In this document: positions 27,938 to 38,141 of the stretch, one piece after another | Position numbering within the stretch: the stretch's first letter is position 1 | How the letters are laid out: each line of letters begins with the position of its first letter | Assembly: GCA_013177815.1 (NCBI GenBank) | Contig: JABLXM010000005.1 | Location: 1 to 54,003 of the forward strand | Reading direction: 5' to 3' | DNA length: 54,003 nt | Origin: Anaerolineae bacterium | Lineage (GTDB): Bacteria; Chloroflexota; Anaerolineae; Anaerolineales; Anaerolineaceae | The notes under the pieces: generated by a model | Database searches by the model: none | Seen by the model: only the letters and a program-made list of their open reading frames with translations | Told to the model about the DNA's origin: nothing | Translations under genes and position numbers: made by a program

Positions 27938-29779
27938 TTGCTGACCATCGGACAGGTTCTCCACAACCGCTACCGCATCGAGCAGCCGCTGGGGCAGGGC
28001 GGATTTGGAGCGGTCTACCGCGCGGTTGATCTGACGCTGAAGGTACCCTGCGCGCTCAAAGAGAACACCGAGACCAACCCGAAAGCCCAGCGCCAGTTCC
28101 TGCACGAAGCCAGCATCCTGGCGGCGCTGCGCCACCCCGGTCTGCCGCGCGTCACCGATTACTTCACCATGCCTGGGCAGGGGCAGTACCTGGTGATGGA
28201 CCTGGTGGCGGGCGAGGACCTGCAAACCCGCCTGGAACGGGCGGACAAGGGGCTGCCAACCAGCCTGACGCTGGAGTGGATGGTGCAGGTGTGCGCTGCG
28301 CTGGCATACCTGCATCGCCAGAAGCCGCCCGTCATCCACCGCGATATCAAGCCGCGCAATATCCTCATCACACCTGCCGGGCAGGCGGTGCTGGTGGATT
28401 TCGGCGTTGCCAAGCTGTACGACCCGACGGTGCGCACCACGCAAGGGGCGCGGGCGGTCTCGCCCGGCTATTCACCGCCCGAGCAGTACGGCACCGCCCG
28501 CACGGATGCGCGCTCCGATATCTACGCCCTGGGTGCAACGCTCTACACGCTGTTGACCGGTGAAGCGCCGGTGGAGAGCGTGCTGCGCACGGTGGGCACA
28601 GCGCTGCCGCCGCCGCGCGCGCTCAACCCGAACATCCCCCCGGCGCTGGAGGCAGTGACGCTCAAGGCTATGGCGATCCTGCCGGGCGAGCGCTACGCCA
28701 CGGCGGAGGAATTCTCGCAGGCGCTGCGCGGATTGCCGGCGACAACCCTTGCCGCACCTGCCCGGTCAGCCAACACCCAAGTTGCCCAACCCGCCGGCGG
28801 GCGCACGCGCGTCATCCACCCTGCCGTGCAGGCGCCACCGGTGAGCGCGCCCCAGCTCAGGTTGGGAGCGCCCGACCGGCGCACCTGGCTGGCGTTGGCG
28901 GCGCTGCTGGGCATTGCGCTGCTGGCAGGGTTGGGGGTGACGCTGACGCGCAAGAGCGGGCAGTTCCAGGCGGCGGCGCGCGCCACCCAGACCGCTGTGG
29001 AATTGATCGCTTTCCTGGGTACGCCGTGCGAAGCCGGCGACCTCCGCGAAGATCCCTTTGGCATCCCGATGGTGTGCGTGCCGGGCGGTGAGTTCCTGAT
29101 GGGTTCGACCAACTCGGATGCCTTCGCCGAGACGGATGAGTTTCCCCAGCACCCGGTGCAGGTGGATGACTTCTGGATCGACCAGACCGAGGTCAGCAAC
29201 GCCCAATATCGCCTGTGCGAACTGGCGGGCGCTTGCCAGCCGCCGCTTCAGACCGGCAGCGAGGCGCGCGGCTCGTACTACGGCGATCCGACCTTCAACG
29301 ATTACCCGGTCCTGTGGGTGACGCGCGCACAGGCAGCGGACTACTGCGCCTGGGTTGGCAAGCGTCTGCCAAGCGAGGCGGAGTGGGAGAAAGCCGCCCG
29401 TGGTGCAGACGGGCGGGTCTTCCCGTGGGGCGAATTCTACCCGCCGCCCGCCAACTGCGGCGGCAAAGGCTTCGATACCGCGCCGGTGACCGCTTACACC
29501 GAGGGTGCCAGCCCGTACGGCGCGCTCAACCTGGCGGGCAACGTGTGGGAGTGGGTGGCGGATGCCTATGGGGCGGATTTCTATTCGCGCTTGTTGTACG
29601 ACAACCCGCTGGGTCCGTTGGCGCCGGCGGGGGCGACACTGACCGGGGTGACGCGCGGCGGCGGCTGGAACGCGGATTGCACCAGCGCACGTGCGGCGGC
29701 GCGCCAGCCGGTGACGTGGATGGCGGAAAGCCCCGCCGACAGCGCCAACGCCTGGACGGGCTTCCGCTGCGCGCGGTAG
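27938..29779 (+). CDS. Membrane Ser/Thr protein kinase with C-terminal formylglycine-enzyme-like domain
   Basis: A 613-residue fusion, TTG start. Residues about 8-270 are a Hanks-type kinase: glycine loop LGQGGFGAVY, Lys in CALKEN, catalytic HRDIKPRN and the Mg loop DFGVAKL. A Pro/Ala-rich linker and one membrane segment (about 311-330) follow. Residues about 365-613 are an FGE/SUMF1-type domain (CVPGGEFLMGSTNSD, WIDQTEVSNAQY, RLPSEAEWEKAARG, GNVWEWVAD, RGGGWN). Bacterial kinases with this domain are common in large-genome bacteria, where the outer domain probably senses a ligand rather than modifying sulfatases. TTG lacks a clear binding site. Confidence 0.9.
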   Translation: MLTIGQVLHNRYRIEQPLGQGGFGAVYRAVDLTLKVPCALKENTETNPKAQRQFLHEASILAALRHPGLPRVTDYFTMPGQGQYLVMDLVAGEDLQTRLERADKGLPTSLTLEWMVQVCAALAYLHRQKPPVIHRDIKPRNILITPAGQAVLVDFGVAKLYDPTVRTTQGARAVSPGYSPPEQYGTARTDARSDIYALGATLYTLLTGEAPVESVLRTVGTALPPPRALNPNIPPALEAVTLKAMAILPGERYATAEEFSQALRGLPATTLAAPARSANTQVAQPAGGRTRVIHPAVQAPPVSAPQLRLGAPDRRTWLALAALLGIALLAGLGVTLTRKSGQFQAAARATQTAVELIAFLGTPCEAGDLREDPFGIPMVCVPGGEFLMGSTNSDAFAETDEFPQHPVQVDDFWIDQTEVSNAQYRLCELAGACQPPLQTGSEARGSYYGDPTFNDYPVLWVTRAQAADYCAWVGKRLPSEAEWEKAARGADGRVFPWGEFYPPPANCGGKGFDTAPVTAYTEGASPYGALNLAGNVWEWVADAYGADFYSRLLYDNPLGPLAPAGATLTGVTRGGGWNADCTSARAAARQPVTWMAESPADSANAWTGFRCAR

Positions 29780-30006: not shown

Positions 30007-30034
30007 TTGACACATTTCGCACGCGTGATACAAT
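30007..30034 (+). promoter_or_regulatory. Sigma-70 promoter of the arginine operon
   Basis: TTGACA (30007-30012), a 16-base spacer and TACAAT (30029-30034): a near-consensus promoter. Transcription should start about 30041-30042, only three or four bases before the leader-peptide ATG, so the leader would be read almost without a 5' untranslated region. Confidence 0.85.
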
Positions 30035-30044
30035 ACGCCCCAAT

Positions 30045-30122
30045 ATGAACACGCCAATCGTTTCTCTGCGTCGTCGTCGTCGTATGCTACCTGTCTATCC
30101 CCGTGAAGGATGGGAGCTTTGA
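30045..30122 (+). CDS. argL: Arginine leader peptide (25 codons, five consecutive Arg)
   Basis: An open frame of 25 codons and a stop, beginning ATG AAC ACG. Codons 9-13 (30069-30083) are five CGT arginine codons in a row, and codon 20 is a sixth Arg. The stop is TGA at 30120-30122. It lies between a strong promoter and a T-run terminator ahead of argG. This is the layout of ribosome-mediated attenuator peptides such as those of his, trp and leu operons. A ribosome starved of arginyl-tRNA would stall here and free 30101-30110 for antitermination. It has no Shine-Dalgarno sequence. The symbol argL is descriptive. The coding sequence is seen directly; the function is inferred but strongly constrained. 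Confidence 0.85.
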   Translation: MNTPIVSLRRRRRMLPVYPREGWEL

Positions 30123-30203
30123 CGTTGAGAAACGGAAAAGTGTAACCGGTCAGAAAGTGACCGAAGATCGCCCAAAATAACCCTCCTTCACGGAGGGTTT
30201 TTT
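30101..30203 (+). promoter_or_regulatory. Arginine attenuator: antiterminator and accessory hairpins
   Basis: CCGTGAAGGA (30101-30110) is perfectly complementary to TCCTTCACGG (30184-30193), which is part of the terminator stem, so the two folds exclude each other. Between them are CGTT-GAGA-AACG (30123-30134) and CGGTCA-GAAAG-TGACCG (30147-30163), which would shorten the loop of the antiterminator. The 5' strand of the antiterminator lies inside the last codons of the leader peptide. A ribosome that reaches the stop codon covers it and lets the terminator form; a ribosome stalled at the Arg run leaves it free. Confidence 0.85.
30181..30203 (+). terminator. Conditional intrinsic terminator in front of argG
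   Basis: The stem CCCTCC (30181-30186) / GGAGGG (30192-30197) with loop TTCAC is followed by TTTTTTATTTT. It ends 34 bases before the argG start and would stop transcription into the whole operon unless the antiterminator forms. Confidence 0.9.
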
Positions 30204-30236
30204 ATTTTGCCATCAATATCATCTGAAGGAGTAGCC

Positions 30237-31508
<1,272 letters not shown>

Positions 31509-31549
31509 GAGGCGGGAAGCGTGTCGACAGGATTGCGAAAGGAGGCGGC

Positions 31550-32920
31550 ATGACGCTGTGGGGTGGACGTTTTTCCGGCAAGCTGGACGAAGGCGCCTGG
31601 AAGTTGAACGCTTCGCTGCCGTTCGACCGGCGCTTAGCCAGGCAGGACGTGCAAGGCAGCCTGGCTTGGGCGGACGCCTTGTTGAAAGTGAGGGTGCTCT
31701 CGCAGGAGGAGCACGCCGCACTGACGGACGGGCTGCAAGCCGTTGCGGATGAATTCGCAAGCGGTTCGTTTGCCTTCGCGGAGACGGATGAGGACATCCA
31801 CACCGCGGTGGAGCGCCGCCTGGGCGAGCTGATCGGCGATACAGCCGGCAAGCTGCACACCGGGCGCAGCCGCAACGACCAGGTCGCCACCGATTTCAGA
31901 CTGTGGATGCTGGAAGCGCTGCCCGACTTGGAGCAAGCCATCCTGGGGTTGCAAGCCGTGCTGGTGAAGCTGGCAGCGGGGAACCAGGATGCCATCCTGC
32001 CCGGCTACACTCACCTGCAACGCGCCCAGCCGGTGCTGCTGGCGCACTGGCTGTTGAGTCACTTTTGGGCGTTGCAGCGCGACCACGAGAGGCTCGGCGA
32101 CCTGCAAAAACGGGTGGCGGTGATGCCGCTGGGCAGCGGGGCGCTGGCGGGCACGATCTTAGCCATCGACCGCCAAGCCCTGGCGGCTGAACTGGGATTT
32201 GCATCCCCATCAGAAAACAGCCTGGATGCCGTCTCGGACCGCGACTTTGCGGCTGAGTTCCTGTTCTGCGCCGCCATGACCGGCGTGCACCTGAGCCGGC
32301 TTGCAGAGGCGATGGTGCTCTTCACCACCGCCGAGTTCGGCTTCTTCGAATTGCCGGATGCCTTCTCGACCGGCTCCAGCCTGATGCCGCAAAAGAAGAA
32401 CCCCGACCTGTTCGAACTGGCGCGAGGCAAGGCTGGCACGCTGGTGGGGCTGCTGACCGGTTTGCTCGCCACCCTGAAGGGACTGCCCTCCAGCTACGAC
32501 AAGGACTTGCAGGAGGACAAGCAGCCGGTCTTCCAGGCATATGACACGCTGCTGAGCGTGCTCCCCGTGCTGGCGGGGGCGTTGGAGAACATGACCATCC
32601 TGAAGGACAACATGCGCGCCGCCATCGACGGCAGCCTGTACGCCACCGACCTGGCGGATTACCTGGTGAAGAAGGGTGTGCCCTTCCGCGAGGCGCACAG
32701 CCTGGTGGGCAGCGCGGTCCGGCTGGCAGCCGGGAAGAATACCGCGCTGGACGGGCTATCCCTGGCGGATTACCGGAAAATCGGTCCGTTCGAAGAAGAT
32801 GTTTACGAACTGTTCGACCCCCTGAGTTCTGTCAACAAGCACAATGCGCTCGGCGGCACCTCTCAGGAAAGCGTCAAAATACAAATTCAAAAAGCGCAAA
32901 CATTGATCAAAGGAGAATGA
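31550..32920 (+). CDS. argH: Argininosuccinate lyase
   Basis: A 456-residue enzyme splitting argininosuccinate into arginine and fumarate. The N-terminus LWGGRFSGKLDE and the superfamily signature GSSLMPQKKNPD (with the catalytic Ser) are typical, as are TGRSRNDQVATD and YTHLQRAQPV. AAAGGAGG precedes the ATG. Its stop is three bases before lysW, so the arginine genes and the LysW genes form one unit. Confidence 0.97.
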   Translation: MTLWGGRFSGKLDEGAWKLNASLPFDRRLARQDVQGSLAWADALLKVRVLSQEEHAALTDGLQAVADEFASGSFAFAETDEDIHTAVERRLGELIGDTAGKLHTGRSRNDQVATDFRLWMLEALPDLEQAILGLQAVLVKLAAGNQDAILPGYTHLQRAQPVLLAHWLLSHFWALQRDHERLGDLQKRVAVMPLGSGALAGTILAIDRQALAAELGFASPSENSLDAVSDRDFAAEFLFCAAMTGVHLSRLAEAMVLFTTAEFGFFELPDAFSTGSSLMPQKKNPDLFELARGKAGTLVGLLTGLLATLKGLPSSYDKDLQEDKQPVFQAYDTLLSVLPVLAGALENMTILKDNMRAAIDGSLYATDLADYLVKKGVPFREAHSLVGSAVRLAAGKNTALDGLSLADYRKIGPFEEDVYELFDPLSSVNKHNALGGTSQESVKIQIQKAQTLIKGE

Positions 32921-32922
32921 AA

Positions 32923-33093
32923 ATGAACACTGTGAAATGCCCCGAATGCGATGCCGAGATCACGCTGGAAGCCAACACCGAAGTCGGTGAGATTCTGGTT
33001 TGTCCGGACTGCGGCGTCGATCTCGAAATCACCGCGCTGGAGCCTGCCAGCGTGGAACTGGCTCCGATGGAGCAGGAAGACTGGGGAGAATGA
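32923..33093 (+). CDS. lysW: LysW amino-group carrier protein
   Basis: A 56-residue acidic protein. A zinc ribbon is formed by CPEC (Cys6, Cys9) and CPDC (Cys27, Cys30), and it ends in EDWGE, the invariant tail of LysW. The gamma-carboxyl of the last Glu is joined to the amino group of glutamate or 2-aminoadipate, which protects it and delivers it by charge to the following enzymes. Its place between argH and lysX makes glutamate, hence ornithine and arginine, the likely cargo. The ATG follows AAAGGAG by the usual distance. Confidence 0.95.
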
Positions 33094-33124
33094 CCGGCGA
33101 AGGGCGCCGGCGAGGTTCGGATTC

Positions 33125-33994
33125 ATGACGCAAAAACGATTGCATATCGGCGTGATCTATTCGCGCGTGCGGGTGGAGGAGAAGTGGATCTTTGGCGCGA
33201 TGGAAAAGTTCGGCATCGATTATGAGCGGCTGGACGACCGGGCGATCTCGTTCGACCTGGAGCGCCCCGAACCCTGGAAATCCTTCGATGCGGTGCTGTC
33301 GCGCAGCATCGGCTACACCAGCGGGTTGTACAGTCTGCGCGTGCTGAACGCCTTTGGCGTGCGCACGGTCAACAGGGCGTCGGTAGCCGAAATCTGCGGC
33401 GACAAGCTGGTGACCAGCGCCATGCTCAGCCGGGCAGGGGTGCCGCAGCCGCACACCGTCACCGCCTTCACGCCCGAAGCCGCCCTGGATGCCATCGAAG
33501 CCTTTGGCTACCCGGTGGTACTGAAACCGGTGGTGGGCTCTTGGGGGCGGCTGCTGGCAAAGATCAACGACCGCGAAGCCGCCGAAGCGGTGGTGGAGCA
33601 CAAAGCCACGCTGGGTTCGGTGCAGCACTCGGTCTTTTATATCCAGGAATATATCAAGAAGCCGGGACGTGACATCCGCGCCATCGTGATCGGTGAGCGG
33701 GTGCTGCTCGCCATCTATCGCAAATCGGAGCATTGGATCACCAACACGGCGCGCAGCGGCGAGGGCGAGATGTGCCCGCTCACCCCGAAGATCGAGGCGT
33801 TGTGCCTGCAAGCCGCCGCAGCCGTGGGTGGGGGCGTGCTGGCGGTGGACCTGGTGGAGCATCCCGACAAGGGGCTGCTGGTGAACGAGGTCAACCACAC
33901 GATGGAGTTCCACACCGCGCAGCCGATCAGCGGGGTGGATATTGCCGGCGAGATCGTCAACTACGTGGTGCAGGTCGCCAGGGGGGAGGCATGA
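33125..33994 (+). CDS. lysX: LysW-glutamate/aminoadipate ligase (LysX/ArgX, ATP-grasp)
   Basis: A 289-residue RimK-type ATP-grasp ligase that attaches an amino acid to the C-terminal Glu of LysW. Visible features are the N-terminal [14 protein letters not shown], the ATP-binding [30 protein letters not shown], and the metal-binding end [13 protein letters not shown]. LysX proteins use 2-aminoadipate and ArgX proteins glutamate. The sequence alone does not settle this, but the operon (argG, argH, Arg attenuator) favours glutamate. A longer frame upstream overlaps lysW and is a shadow. Confidence 0.93.
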
Positions 33995-34025
33995 GACAGC
34001 CTCGCAGCAAACGAAAGGAGAAGGT

Positions 34026-35060
34026 ATGGTCAGTGCAGCCATAATCGGCGGGTCGGGATACGGCGGGGGTGAATTGTTGCGGTTGTTGCTGGGGCACCCG
34101 CAGGTGACGGTGCAGCAGGTGACTTCGCGCTCGCACCTGGGCGAGTATGTGTACCAGGTGCACCCCAACCTGCGCAAGCGCAGCCAGCTCAAGTTCAGCG
34201 ACCCTGCTGCGCTCGAACCGGTGGATGTGCTGTTCCTAGCCCTGCCGCACGGCGCGGCGCAGAAGCGGATCGATGAATATGCGGCGCTGGCGCCCAGGAT
34301 CATCGACCTCTCGGCGGATTTCAGGCTGCGGGATGCCGCGCTGTATGAGCAATGGTATGGGCAGCCGCACGCCGCGCCGCACTGGCTGGGCAGGTTCGTC
34401 TACGGGCTGCCGGAACTGCGCCGTGCTGAAATCGCCGCTGCCAGTCATATCAGCGGGGTGGGCTGCAACGCGACCGCAGCCAACCTGGCGCTGCTGCCCC
34501 TGGTGCAAGGCGGGCTGGTGAAAGCCGAAACGCCGGCGATCATCGAGATCAAGGTGGGGTCGTCCGAATCGGGGGCAGAGGGCAATGCGGGATCGCTGCA
34601 CGCCGAGCGCGCCAACGTGGTGCGCACCTTCTCCGCTTTTGGGCACCGGCACACTGCCGAAGTCATCCAGGAGATGGGCATGGCGCACGCCAGCCTGACC
34701 ATGACGGCGGTCGACCTGGTGCGGGGCGCGCTGGCTACCGCGCACACCCAGGTGAAGGCAGGCGTGACCGGCAAGGACCTGTGGAAGGCGTACCGCAGCG
34801 CCGCCAACGAAAATCCGTTCATCCGGCTGGTGAAGGAACAGCGCGGCATCTACCGCGTGCCGGAGCCCAAGATCGTGAGCGGCTCCAACTATGCCGACCT
34901 GGGTTTCGAACTGGACGAAAGCAACGGACACGTGGTTTCGATTTGCGCCATCGATAACTTGATGAAGGGCGCTGCCGGGACGGCGGTGCAGTGCCTGAAC
35001 CTGATGATGGGCTGGGATGAGACCAGTGGGCTGGAGTTCACCGGGTTGCACCCCATATAG
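34026..35060 (+). CDS. lysY: LysW-gamma-glutamyl/aminoadipyl phosphate reductase (LysY, ArgC family)
   Basis: A 344-residue NADPH-dependent reductase converting the LysW-bound acyl phosphate to the semialdehyde. The nucleotide motif is AIIGGSGYGGGELLRLLLGHP, and the catalytic Cys147 is in SGVGCNATAAN; the catalytic His is probably in SLHAERANVVRTF. A site AAAGGAG stands ahead of the ATG. The gene is homologous to argC of the ordinary acetylated route. Confidence 0.93.
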   Translation: MVSAAIIGGSGYGGGELLRLLLGHPQVTVQQVTSRSHLGEYVYQVHPNLRKRSQLKFSDPAALEPVDVLFLALPHGAAQKRIDEYAALAPRIIDLSADFRLRDAALYEQWYGQPHAAPHWLGRFVYGLPELRRAEIAAASHISGVGCNATAANLALLPLVQGGLVKAETPAIIEIKVGSSESGAEGNAGSLHAERANVVRTFSAFGHRHTAEVIQEMGMAHASLTMTAVDLVRGALATAHTQVKAGVTGKDLWKAYRSAANENPFIRLVKEQRGIYRVPEPKIVSGSNYADLGFELDESNGHVVSICAIDNLMKGAAGTAVQCLNLMMGWDETSGLEFTGLHPI

Positions 35061-35076
35061 ATTTTTGGAGAGAAGC

Positions 35077-35895
35077 ATGGCACAAACTTCCACCATCGTG
35101 GTCAAACTCGGCGGCACGCAGGGGGTGGATTTTTCAGCCATCTGCGCCGATGCGGCGGAGATGATCCGCCAGGGGCAGCGGCTGGTGCTGGTGCATGGCG
35201 GCTCGGCAGAAGCCAACAGCCTGGGCGCAGCGCTGGGCGCCCCGCCCAGGTTCATCACCTCGCCATCCGGCTACACCTCGCGCTACACCGACCGCAAAAC
35301 GCTGGAAATCTTCTTGATGGCGGTGAACGGCAAGGTCAACGCGCTGTTGACCGAACAACTGCACAGGCTGGGGGTGAACGCCTTTGGGCTGTGCGGCATG
35401 GATGGCAGGTTGCTGGTTGCCGCGCGCAAGGAAGCCATCCAGAGTGTCGAAAACGGCAAGCGCCGGATGATCCGCGACGACTACACCGGCAAGATCGATG
35501 CGGTCGATGCGGCGTTGCTGGAAATGTTGTTGAACGCCGGCGTTCTGCCGGTGATCGCGCCGGTGGCGGTGAGCCACCAGGGCGAGGCGCTCAACGTGGA
35601 TGCCGACCGGGCAGCCGCGATGGTGGCAGGCGCCTTGAAGGCGGCGACGCTGGTGCTGCTGACGGCGGCGCCCGGTCTGATGGAAAAATTCCCCGATGAA
35701 AACAGCCTGGTTAAAAACCTGGCGCGGGAAAAGCTGCCTGCTGCGCTGGAAATGGCGCAGGGGCGCATGAAAAAGAAGGTGTTGGGCAGCGAAGAAGCCC
35801 TGCAGGCAGGCGCGGGCAGGGTCATCATCGCGGACGGGCGCGTCGAGCAGCCCATTTCCGGTGCGCTCGCCGGCGCCGGGACGGTAATCCAATGA
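35077..35895 (+). CDS. lysZ: LysW-gamma-glutamate/aminoadipate kinase (LysZ, ArgB family)
   Basis: A 272-residue amino-acid kinase that phosphorylates the side-chain carboxylate of the LysW-bound amino acid. The N-terminal VVKLGGTQG, the substrate loop LVHGGSAEANSLG, ALNVDADRAAAMVAGAL and LLTAAPGLME are the family's four motifs. The long insert PSGYTSRYTDRKTLEIF is typical of LysZ rather than of the N-acetylglutamate kinases. The start ATG is 16 bases after the lysY stop. Confidence 0.93.
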   Translation: MAQTSTIVVKLGGTQGVDFSAICADAAEMIRQGQRLVLVHGGSAEANSLGAALGAPPRFITSPSGYTSRYTDRKTLEIFLMAVNGKVNALLTEQLHRLGVNAFGLCGMDGRLLVAARKEAIQSVENGKRRMIRDDYTGKIDAVDAALLEMLLNAGVLPVIAPVAVSHQGEALNVDADRAAAMVAGALKAATLVLLTAAPGLMEKFPDENSLVKNLAREKLPAALEMAQGRMKKKVLGSEEALQAGAGRVIIADGRVEQPISGALAGAGTVIQ

Positions 35896-35917
35896 GCGGA
35901 AAGCAGGCAAGATCAAG

Positions 35918-37087
35918 ATGGATATTCTGGCAGTAGAGGAAAAACACACCTGCGGGACGTACGCCAAGCAGCCGGTTGTCATCGTGCGCGGCGAGGGCGC
36001 CTGCCTGTACGACGAGGACGGCAACGAATACCTGGACTGTTCTTCCGGGCACGGGGTGGCGAATTTGGGTCACGCGCACCCCAAGGTGGCGGAGGCAATT
36101 GCCAGACAGGCGCACACCCTGTTGACCTTGTTCGAGACCTTCCCCAACGACCAACGCGCGGCGCTGATGGAAAAATTTGCCGCCCTGCTGCCGGGTATGG
36201 AGCGGGTCTTCTTCTGCAACTCGGGCACCGAAGCGGTGGAAGCCGCCATCAAGTTCGCCCGCCTGTCCACGGGGCGGACGGGGATCGTCGCCGCCATGCG
36301 CGGTTTTCACGGGCGCAGCATGGGAGCGCTTTCCGCCACCTGGAACAAGGCGTACCGCGAGCCTTTCCTGCCGCTGGTGCCGGAGTTCAGCCACGTGCCC
36401 TATAACAATGGCGACGCGCTGGAAAAAGCGGTCGGTGGGGGGACGGCGGCGGTGATCTTGGAGGCGGTGCAGGGTGAGGGCGGGGTTTACCCCGCCGCAC
36501 CAGGTTATTTAAAGGAAGCGCAGCGCATCTGCCGGGCAGCCGGGGCGCTGCTGATCCTCGACGAGGTGCAGACCGGCTTCTGCCGCAGCGGCAAAATGTT
36601 TGCCTGCCAGCATGATGATGTCACGCCCGACCTGCTGTGCTGCGCCAAGTCGCTGGCTGGCGGCGTCCCCATGGGGGCGGTGTTGCTCGGACCGGCGGTG
36701 AAGAACCTCACGCCGGGGGTGCACGGCTCGACCTTTGGCGGCAATCCGCTGGCATGTGCGGCGGCGTTGGCGGCGCTGGCGGTGATGCAGGAGGAAAAGC
36801 TGGCTGAACAGGCGGCTGAAAAGGGCGCTTACCTGATGGAAAAGCTGGGCGCCATCCGGTCCCCGCTGGTGCGCGAGGTGCGCGGCATGGGGTTGATGAT
36901 CGGCATCGAACTCAAACAGAAGGTCACGCCCTACCTCAAGGCGTTGCAGGAAAAGCGCATCATTGCGCTGAACGCCGGGCTGACGGTCATCCGCCTGCTG
37001 CCGCCGCTCGTGATCACCTACCGGCAGCTCGACCGGCTGGCAGCCACCCTGGATGAAGTGCTCGCCGGCGAACCCGGCGGGGAATGA
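35918..37087 (+). CDS. lysJ: LysW-ornithine/lysine aminotransferase (LysJ, ArgD family)
   Basis: A 389-residue class III PLP aminotransferase that aminates the LysW-bound semialdehyde using glutamate. Signatures are [48 protein letters not shown], and the PLP lysine K244 in [14 protein letters not shown]. It ends eight bases before lysK. It corresponds to argD of the acetyl route. Confidence 0.94.
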
Positions 37088-37094
37088 GCCTGCC

Positions 37095-38141
37095 ATGAAT
37101 GAAACCCTGGTTGGATTGGTCAGCCAGTACAGCCCTTCCGGACAGGAAGCGGCGGCTGTGCGCTGGCTGGTCGAGCGCATGAAGGCGCTCGGATACGACC
37201 AAGCCTTCATTGATGGCGCGGGCAACGCGGTGGGCGTGATGGGTAGTGGCGCGCGCCAGGTCGTGCTGCTGGGGCACATCGACACGGTGCCGGGGGAAAT
37301 CCCCGTGCGCGTGGCGGAGGGCGTGCTCCACGGGCGCGGCGCGGTGGACGCCAAGGGCGCACTGGCTTGCTTCGTCGATGCCGCGGCTGGCGCCGGCGCT
37401 CCGGAGGGCTGGCAGGTGGTGGTCATCGGTGCGGTCGGGGAGGAGCGGGATTCGCGCGGGGCATATTACGCGGCGGAGCGCTACCGACCGGAATACGCCA
37501 TCATCGGCGAACCCAACCGCTGGGAGCGGGTGGCGCTGGGGTACAAAGGCACAGCCTGGGCACAGATCACCACCCGGCGCGGGCAGGCGCACACCGCCGG
37601 CGGCGGCAAGACCGCCTGCGAGGCGGCGCTGGAAGTGTGGGGGGCGATCCGCGCCTTTGCGGATGCCTATAACGCCGGCAACCCCCGCGTCTTCGACCAG
37701 GTGCAGCCCACGTTGAACCATTGGGATGCGGGGGAAGGGGACTTCGAGCAGTGGGCGCGGCTGAAGGTGGGCGTGAGGCTGCCCCCCGCCTTGCCGCCCG
37801 CGGCTTGGTACGACAGGCTGGAGCAGGTTGCCGGCGGTGTGCAAGTCGAACGGCTCGGTCAATCCATAACGGCGTGGACGTGCGACAAGAACACCCGGCT
37901 GGTGAGGGCGCTGCTGGCGGGCATCCGTGGCGCGGGCGGCAGCCCGGCGTTCGTGTACAAGACCGGCACCGCCGATTTGAACATCGTGGCGCCGGTTTGG
38001 GGCTGCCCGGCGCTGGTCTACGGTCCAGGCGATTCGGCGTTGGATCACACCCCGGATGAGAAGATCGACCTGGGGGAATACGGGCAGGCGGTGCAGGTGC
38101 TGGCATCTGCGCTGGGTAAGCTGATGCAAGCAGGGCGGTGA
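37095..38141 (+). CDS. lysK: LysW-ornithine/lysine hydrolase (LysK, M20 family)
   Basis: A 348-residue M20-type zinc peptidase that cuts the finished amino acid from LysW, regenerating the carrier. The metal site motifs are [25 protein letters not shown] and [10 protein letters not shown]. It is the last gene of the operon. Released ornithine would need ArgF (ornithine carbamoyltransferase), which is not in the window, to reach ArgG and ArgH. A longer upstream start would overlap lysJ and lacks a site. Confidence 0.93.

Follow-up and report, generated by a model that had tools for sequence, protein, structure and literature searches.

The operon argG-argH-lysWXYZJK in the window (the whole stretch of 54,003 nt analysed here) is very probably controlled by a ribosome-mediated transcription attenuator that would sense charged arginyl-tRNA, as judged from the window's sequence and that of its relatives. 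A preliminary description had proposed a complete arginine attenuator ahead of argG, and this proposal is supported by conservation, covariation, spacing and codon choice. From these features we infer translation of the leader, the arginine signal, actual termination and co-transcription of the operon.

Leader, terminator and antiterminator ahead of argG

The near-consensus promoter of the preliminary description was found again as a sigma-70-type promoter (TTGACA-16-TACAAT, 30007..30034, + strand) with 11 of 12 consensus matches. Its -35 box TTGACA (30007-30012) and -10 box TACAAT (30029-30034), read from the sequence on the + strand, are separated by a 16-nt spacer, and a TG precedes the -10 box. 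A promoter of such strength is by itself within chance (one found against 0.6 expected in the 601 bases scanned). The leader peptide MNTPIVSLRRRRRMLPVYPREGWEL is encoded by 25 codons (30045..30122, +), and codons 9-13 are all CGT (Arg), as described before; these five sensor codons occupy 30069..30083 (+). Between the -10 box and the start codon there are 10 nt; a transcript from this promoter would have only a few bases ahead of the ATG, too few for a Shine-Dalgarno sequence. The window leader would be nearly leaderless, a prediction made from the -10-to-ATG distance.

Between the leader and the first structural gene lies an intrinsic terminator, and the T-run terminator stem reported earlier is indeed present as a hairpin AACCCTCCttcacGGAGGGTT (30179-30199, +) with the T-rich tract TTTTATTTT behind it, the whole element covering 30179..30208. 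The antiterminator 5' arm CCGTGAAGGATGGG (30101..30114, +) begins 17 nt downstream of the Arg run, and its complement, the antiterminator 3' arm (30181..30193, +), consists of the terminator 5' arm and loop. The complementarity noted at first sight is exact over 10 bases: read in reverse complement, 30184-30193 (TCCTTCACGG) is identical to 30101-30110 (CCGTGAAGGA), and three further pairs, 30112-30114 with 30181-30183, follow past a one-base bulge. The duplex amounts to -20.0 kcal/mol, a value reached by none of 200 shuffles of the segment from the Arg codons to the terminator. Folding also predicts a 1:2 protector hairpin (30086..30117, +; arms 30086-30099 and 30105-30117), which in ribosome-free RNA of the window would sequester much of the antiterminator arm. 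A small hairpin, CGGTCA-gaaag-TGACCG (30147..30163, +), is predicted between the two antiterminator arms in both states.

The first operon gene is argG (argininosuccinate synthase; 30237..31508, +), with an SD-like AAGGAG at 30226-30231. It is followed by argH and the LysW-carrier genes lysW, lysX, an argC-like reductase gene, lysZ, lysJ and lysK (31550..38141, +), so that 30237-38141 holds a complete LysW amino-group-carrier cluster headed by argGH; lysW itself lies at about 32923-33093 (+; Pfam PF21344, E 1.5e-17). In the family search argG and argH score above the curated cut-offs, and through these two the downstream genes make the sensed amino acid. LysW-type genes could serve arginine or lysine, and several NCBIfam names point to lysine (LysX, [LysW]-aminoadipate kinase, [LysW]-lysine hydrolase); the tie to arginine therefore rests on argG, argH and the leader. 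The arrangement suggests that this Chloroflexota lineage makes arginine by a LysW-type route. The frame immediately before the attenuator, 27938-29779 (+), encodes a Ser/Thr protein kinase whose C-terminal part weakly matches formylglycine-enzyme-like families (GldK, EgtB, SenA).

Conservation of the leader in related genomes

We compared 88 argG upstream regions (the window, 55 loci, 12 named Chloroflexota loci and 20 further stretches) with a strict detector for a promoter ending 3-16 nt before a start codon, a clustered-Arg frame and a T-run terminator before argG. The three elements occur in this order in 45 of the 88 regions, against 4 of 1,760 dinucleotide shuffles. The Arg run and the complementary arms are not absent from close relatives; the opposite was found, and the Arg-rich frame, the covarying arms and the terminator recur in the upstream regions compared. 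Some of the detector's misses are contig ends (L090, L094 and L095, with 86-170 nt upstream). Twelve hand corrections (five frames re-chosen, seven added) gave a curated set of 52 leaders, and this curation came before the duplex, covariation, spacing, folding and codon analyses. Locus L010, apparently from the same species as L108, was left out of later counts.

Like the window with its five CGT codons, all 52 curated leaders are short frames with clustered Arg codons, this clustering being the rule by which they were selected. The first Arg of the cluster stands at codon 9 (median, IQR 8.5-9; 51 leaders). Among the 45 strict positives the -10 box ends 6-16 nt before the start codon. The commonest distance is 10 nt, with 19 cases that include several close relatives; the shortness is partly built into the detector through its allowed range of 3-16 nt. 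A Shine-Dalgarno-like string precedes the leader start in 1 of the 52 leaders. The leaders of the window's order are nearly leaderless, unlike that of locus L255 (genome G356, another family of the class), where an Arg-rich frame begins with GTG behind an AAGGAG-like Shine-Dalgarno sequence.

With a relaxed detector that leaves out the promoter, leaders were found in 13 of 50 regions of the wider class (10 of the 50 shared with the set of 88), compared with 3 of 490 shuffles, and in 2 of 40 regions of other classes of the phylum against 1 of 400 shuffles; in some matches (L151, L220) this detector picks a doubtful frame. In the family of one other-class match, two further regions (G457, G530) have Arg-rich frames and a terminator by eye, and a third (G649) does not. 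By these counts, argG lacks such a leader in most of the regions examined beyond the window's order.

Inspection by eye of 35 argF regions, the window genome's own included, revealed no leader in 34. The single exception is L174 (genome G034), where an Arg-rich frame (MTLESRLRRRTRYSPCSLGCQAYWVA) and a T-run terminator precede argF; here the attenuator may have relocated to a different arginine gene or originated there. With 1 of 35 at argF, the switch seems almost confined to argG, as far as these two genes show. When 21 loci without a leader at argG were scanned further upstream, only L104 (genome G046) was positive. Its leader MFALPRARRSSRRFVIP and terminator lie about 1.1 kb upstream of argG, ahead of a 322-codon open stretch that precedes argG, as if the switch had stayed at the head of the operon.

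Covariation of the antiterminator arms

The antiterminator duplex is stronger than in shuffles at p<=0.05 in 38 of the 52 leaders, and 14 of the 52 miss this threshold. Cognate arms pair at -15.6 kcal/mol and non-cognate arms at -12.6 kcal/mol (n=51), and none of 10,000 permutations reaches the cognate mean. Related genomes are not independent; the draws were accordingly spread over genera, and the test was repeated after reducing the over-sampled family f12 to a single row (n=39), again with 0 of 10,000 permutations. The arms differ between loci and keep their pairing, as in the window (CCGTGAAGG with CCTTCACGG), L083 (CCGAAAAGG with CCTTTTCGG), L086 (CCAAGAAGG with CCTTCTTGG) and L122 (CCAGGGAAGG with CCTTCCCTGG). 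In the terminator, the 5 nt that follow the CCTT core also covary with the leader (3.68 vs 3.23 pairs; 9 of 10,000 permutations), in a test confined to the 25 of 51 rows with the core motif and weakened because the motif pattern left some of these 25, such as L086, out of register. Part of the paired terminator bases lie in the loop, so their agreement with the leader cannot stem from the terminator stem itself. Covariation thus supports an antiterminator that excludes the terminator.

Spacing and folding in the presence of a ribosome

The antiterminator arm starts a median of 17 nt after the last Arg codon (IQR 16-19.5, MAD 2 nt), and 4 of 10,000 permutations of the Arg positions are equally tight. 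Measured from the leader stop, the MAD of the arm start is 9 nt; from the start codon it is 3 nt, a small deviation because the Arg cluster itself lies near codon 9. The leading edge of a ribosome lies about 10 nt downstream of its A-site codon, and the constant distance from Arg codons to arm suits a ribosome with an Arg codon in the A site.

We folded the RNA up to the terminator loop under ribosome masks that reach 10 nt downstream. In the window, the terminator 5' arm is predicted to form 1.0 pairs with upstream RNA when the RNA is naked, 10.8 when a ribosome is stalled on the Arg run, and 0.7 when it is at the stop codon. The masked folding proposed at the outset thus switches the pairing in the window, and the suggestion that a ribosome stalled on the Arg run frees the antiterminator is borne out by the constrained folds, in which an advanced ribosome or none does not free it. 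For 50 leaders (2 of the 52 were without a terminator in that script) the corresponding medians are 3.5, 10.8 (ribosome placed on the last Arg codon) and 3.0 pairs. In 10 of the 50, the window not among them, the naked RNA already has at least 8 expected upstream pairs, so termination would not be the default state of these leaders. When the ribosome is slid along the leader, the median pairing is maintained up to 9 nt beyond the Arg codons and falls thereafter. A leader was scored as having both switches if the stalled ribosome gave at least 4 pairs more than naked RNA and at least 4 pairs more than a ribosome 18 nt further on. This holds for 28 of 49 leaders, against 7 of 245 shuffles; in the constrained folds the other 21 of 49 do not show both.

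The preliminary description had also held that a ribosome at the stop codon hides the arm. The window agrees (0.7 pairs) and its relatives do not: in the 52 curated leaders the arm start ranges from -61 to +18 nt relative to the last base of the stop codon, and where the stop is distant a ribosome there cannot cover the arm. The folding points instead to the 1:2 hairpin. The bases after the Arg codons form 9.4 expected pairs with the antiterminator arm (4.3 in shuffles), and at least 6 such pairs are predicted in 39 of 51 leaders against 80 of 255 shuffles. In the model that follows, the antiterminator would be hidden mainly by the predicted 1:2 hairpin, which a ribosome on the Arg codons would break, and the ribosome at the stop would be a part of this. 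The predicted architecture is the classical one of 1:2, 2:3 and 3:4 hairpins.

Sensor codons, arginine tRNAs and other short frames

The sensor codons of the leaders are CGT (87), CGA (49), CGC (28), CGG (4) and AGG (1), counts that take close relatives separately and so overstate independence. At 42 of these loci argG itself uses CGC (59%), CGG (16%), CGT (16%) and CGA (4%), and in the window genes CGT and CGA make up 7% and 2% of Arg codons. By these counts, the leaders favour Arg codons that the cell appears to use little. Two or more different Arg codons occur in 24 of 51 leaders, so the leader run is not merely a DNA repeat. Arg codons make up 18.7% of the leader frame and 8.8% of each shifted frame; this difference is not counted as evidence, because the leaders were selected for Arg clusters.

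The window's own genome carries Arg tRNAs with the anticodons TCT, CCG, TCG, CCT and GCG (loci L298, L303, L311, L320 and L330). None of the 42 tRNA matches in this draft genome (88.9% complete) has the anticodon ACG, an absence that is to our knowledge unusual among bacteria. CGT is therefore probably read by GCG via wobble and CGA by TCG, and the idea that a single isoacceptor reads all sensor codons was dropped.

The promoter-plus-ATG pattern occurs at 22 places in the same genome and at 5 in the reversed control. Besides the Arg leader, one further short frame has a run of a single amino acid: L216 (C260:7069-7111, minus strand), an Ile-rich frame MMFIIILFIYYTTIYS after a promoter-like site that precedes a frame resembling an ABC-transporter ATPase. 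By eye it has no T-run terminator, and it was not counted as a leader. L211 has an Arg pair within 27 codons. L197 (C18:10342) and L212 (C221:6572) are near-identical 34-codon frames (MANSRHP...) right after promoters, with shorter relatives at L198 and L209; the palindrome in the L197 and L212 promoters resembles a LexA box.

Search for ArgR and the place of the proposed attenuator

Bacterial arginine control is taught mainly as ArgR, with T-boxes in some Firmicutes. The ArgR DNA-binding domain was detected in none of 61 genomes, comprising the window's own draft (88.9% complete) and 60 relatives, 41 of the 61 having a completeness of 90% or more and a contamination of 5% or less; the same search detected it in 9 of 14 control genomes. 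The 7 genomes behind the named loci also gave no ArgR match. In a phylum-wide draw, 51 of 251 genomes passed the ArgR cut-off and 54 had a match at E<=0.001, and all 54 belong to other classes of the phylum, none to the window's class; the window's own genome once more gave no match. As far as sampled, ArgR appears to be missing from the class, with or without a leader, and the window genome, which encodes no detectable ArgR, would not hold an ArgR regulon.

ArgR is a protein repressor, unlike the proposed RNA attenuator, and it likewise acts on arginine genes. Its gene often stands directly upstream of argG in the other classes of the phylum. When coordinates were compared by eye, 34 of the 51 ArgR-bearing genomes had argR at most about 0.7 kb upstream of argG and on its strand; for the remaining 17 the two positions are not both given or lie on different contigs. 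Many ArgR-less relatives from other families of the class are without a leader at argG, and the leader is therefore not a simple consequence of ArgR loss.

Related leaders in Neomarinimicrobiota

Among 68 argG loci outside named Chloroflexota, the relaxed detector found 2 Arg leaders, against 4 in 680 shuffles. Both (L019 and L034) belong to Neomarinimicrobiota. The duplex of L019 amounts to -22.4 kcal/mol and begins 17 nt past the Arg cluster; that of L034 is no better than shuffles (p 0.44). A draw of 80 Neomarinimicrobiota genomes gave an ArgG match in 39. ArgG close to that of L019 (74-84%) occurs only in G667 (two copies), G733 and G748, the other full-length matches being at 45-50%. G733 and the second copy of G667 are preceded by Arg-rich frames and a hairpin with a T run, and the upstream region of G748 is cut by a contig end.

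Upstream of the distant Neomarinimicrobiota ArgG, 13 of 18 proteins have an ArgR-like tail by eye, and the two tested against Pfam (those of L343 and L353) are ArgR. No ArgR match was found in G667 and G668. In a 98-row tree, the leader-bearing Neomarinimicrobiota ArgG stands beside Chloroflexota ArgG (SH-aLRT 88) and away from its own phylum. This tree is a quick one with a thinned choice of loci and a midpoint root, so that transfer of a Chloroflexota-like argG with its leader into some Neomarinimicrobiota is likely and not proven.

Proposed mechanism and alternative explanations

In the proposed mechanism, RNA polymerase would initiate a few bases ahead of the leader ATG, and the nearly leaderless frame would be loaded with a ribosome. 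When Arg-tRNA is short, the ribosome would halt on the CGT run (30069-30083); its footprint would break the 1:2 hairpin and end short of 30101. The bases 30101-30114 could then pair with 30181-30193, the terminator would be blocked and the operon read. When Arg-tRNA is plentiful, the ribosome would advance, first covering 30101-30114 and then freeing these bases into the 1:2 hairpin; with that hairpin formed, the terminator would form and transcription would end. Termination is also predicted for untranslated window RNA.

The same RNA switch could be thrown by nascent-chain arrest, with a basic, Arg-rich peptide stalling in the exit tunnel on a metabolite or drug; the signal would then be arginine, ornithine, a polyamine or a drug rather than an empty A site. 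Poly-basic chains slow ribosomes. The Salmonella speF leader orf34 has consecutive Arg codons (PMC6386406). Across families, however, the leader peptides share little beyond Arg by eye (they are alike within f12), the synonymous choice avoids the common CGC, which bears on tRNA supply and not on the peptide, and the arm spacing tracks the Arg codons; arrest by the peptide is thus improbable as an account of these leaders. We give about half as much credence to a coupling or reinitiation device in which leader translation in general, and not the Arg codons, sets readthrough. Such a device would fit a leader just ahead of a terminator, and PMC4833913 proposes that leader genes raise expression by reinitiation, but it gives no reason for the codon bias and the Arg-to-arm spacing, and in the 52 leaders at least 71 nt separate the leader stop from the argG match, with the terminator between.

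Chance, that is, the terminator of the upstream gene combined with a CGT microsatellite, is the least credible explanation and a very remote one. The window run is a pure CGT repeat, and the preceding kinase frame, likewise on the + strand, stops at 29779. Against this, the mixture of Arg codons in 24 of 51 leaders is not that of a repeat, the pattern and the covariation lie far above shuffles, and the promoter sits between the upstream gene and the terminator. Stalling at the Arg codons for want of charged arginyl-tRNA is the reading that we retain.

Relation to known systems

Ribosome-mediated attenuators are best known from the his, trp, leu, thr, phe and ilv operons of enterobacteria. The present element shares with them the run of end-product codons, the choice between 1:2, antiterminator and terminator hairpins, and the biosynthetic operon downstream. 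It differs from the his/trp/leu type in sensing arginine, in its nearly leaderless start, in belonging to another phylum, and in standing at the place where related classes encode argR. The preliminary description knew of no well-studied arginine attenuator of the ribosome-stalling kind, and our searches agree with it. In Rfam, no covariance model matched the window at its gathering score, T-box and other cis-regulatory families included, and a permissive search gave seven matches up to E 5, all far under the gathering scores. No arginine-codon transcription attenuator was found in searches confined to the open-access literature, a scope that does not settle priority.

A survey of Actinobacteria reports no conserved RNA element at arginine operons (PMC1262725). 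Two consecutive Arg codons of the Salmonella speF leader orf34 respond to low arginine, and this polyamine gene is reported to be controlled through Rho, ribosome-site access and RNase G (PMC6386406). The window element is not a leader of this type, since argG lies downstream behind an intrinsic terminator with an antiterminator. Mycobacterial leaderless poly-cysteine short ORFs likewise combine a leaderless frame with a codon run for one amino acid, a likeness drawn from a title cited in PMC13236596; they concern cysteine and Actinobacteria.

Implications for arginine regulation

We consider it probable that an arginine-codon attenuator controls arginine biosynthesis in much of the ArgR-less Chloroflexota, at the place of argR; that an argG-attenuator cassette passed to some Neomarinimicrobiota, again replacing argR; that the element senses charged Arg-tRNA via unfavoured CGT and CGA codons in a nearly leaderless peptide; and that it is the first classical attenuator for arginine. 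A large, poorly cultured lineage thus appears to use ribosome stalling in place of ArgR, and in two phyla a protein repressor and an RNA attenuator would share one slot ahead of argG. The leaders lend themselves to a clean comparison of the way in which attenuators keep sensor codons and antiterminator a set distance apart. For Anaerolineae, known mostly from metagenomes, the attenuator would provide a testable regulatory readout of arginine supply, and it argues for an arginine role of their LysW-type cluster.
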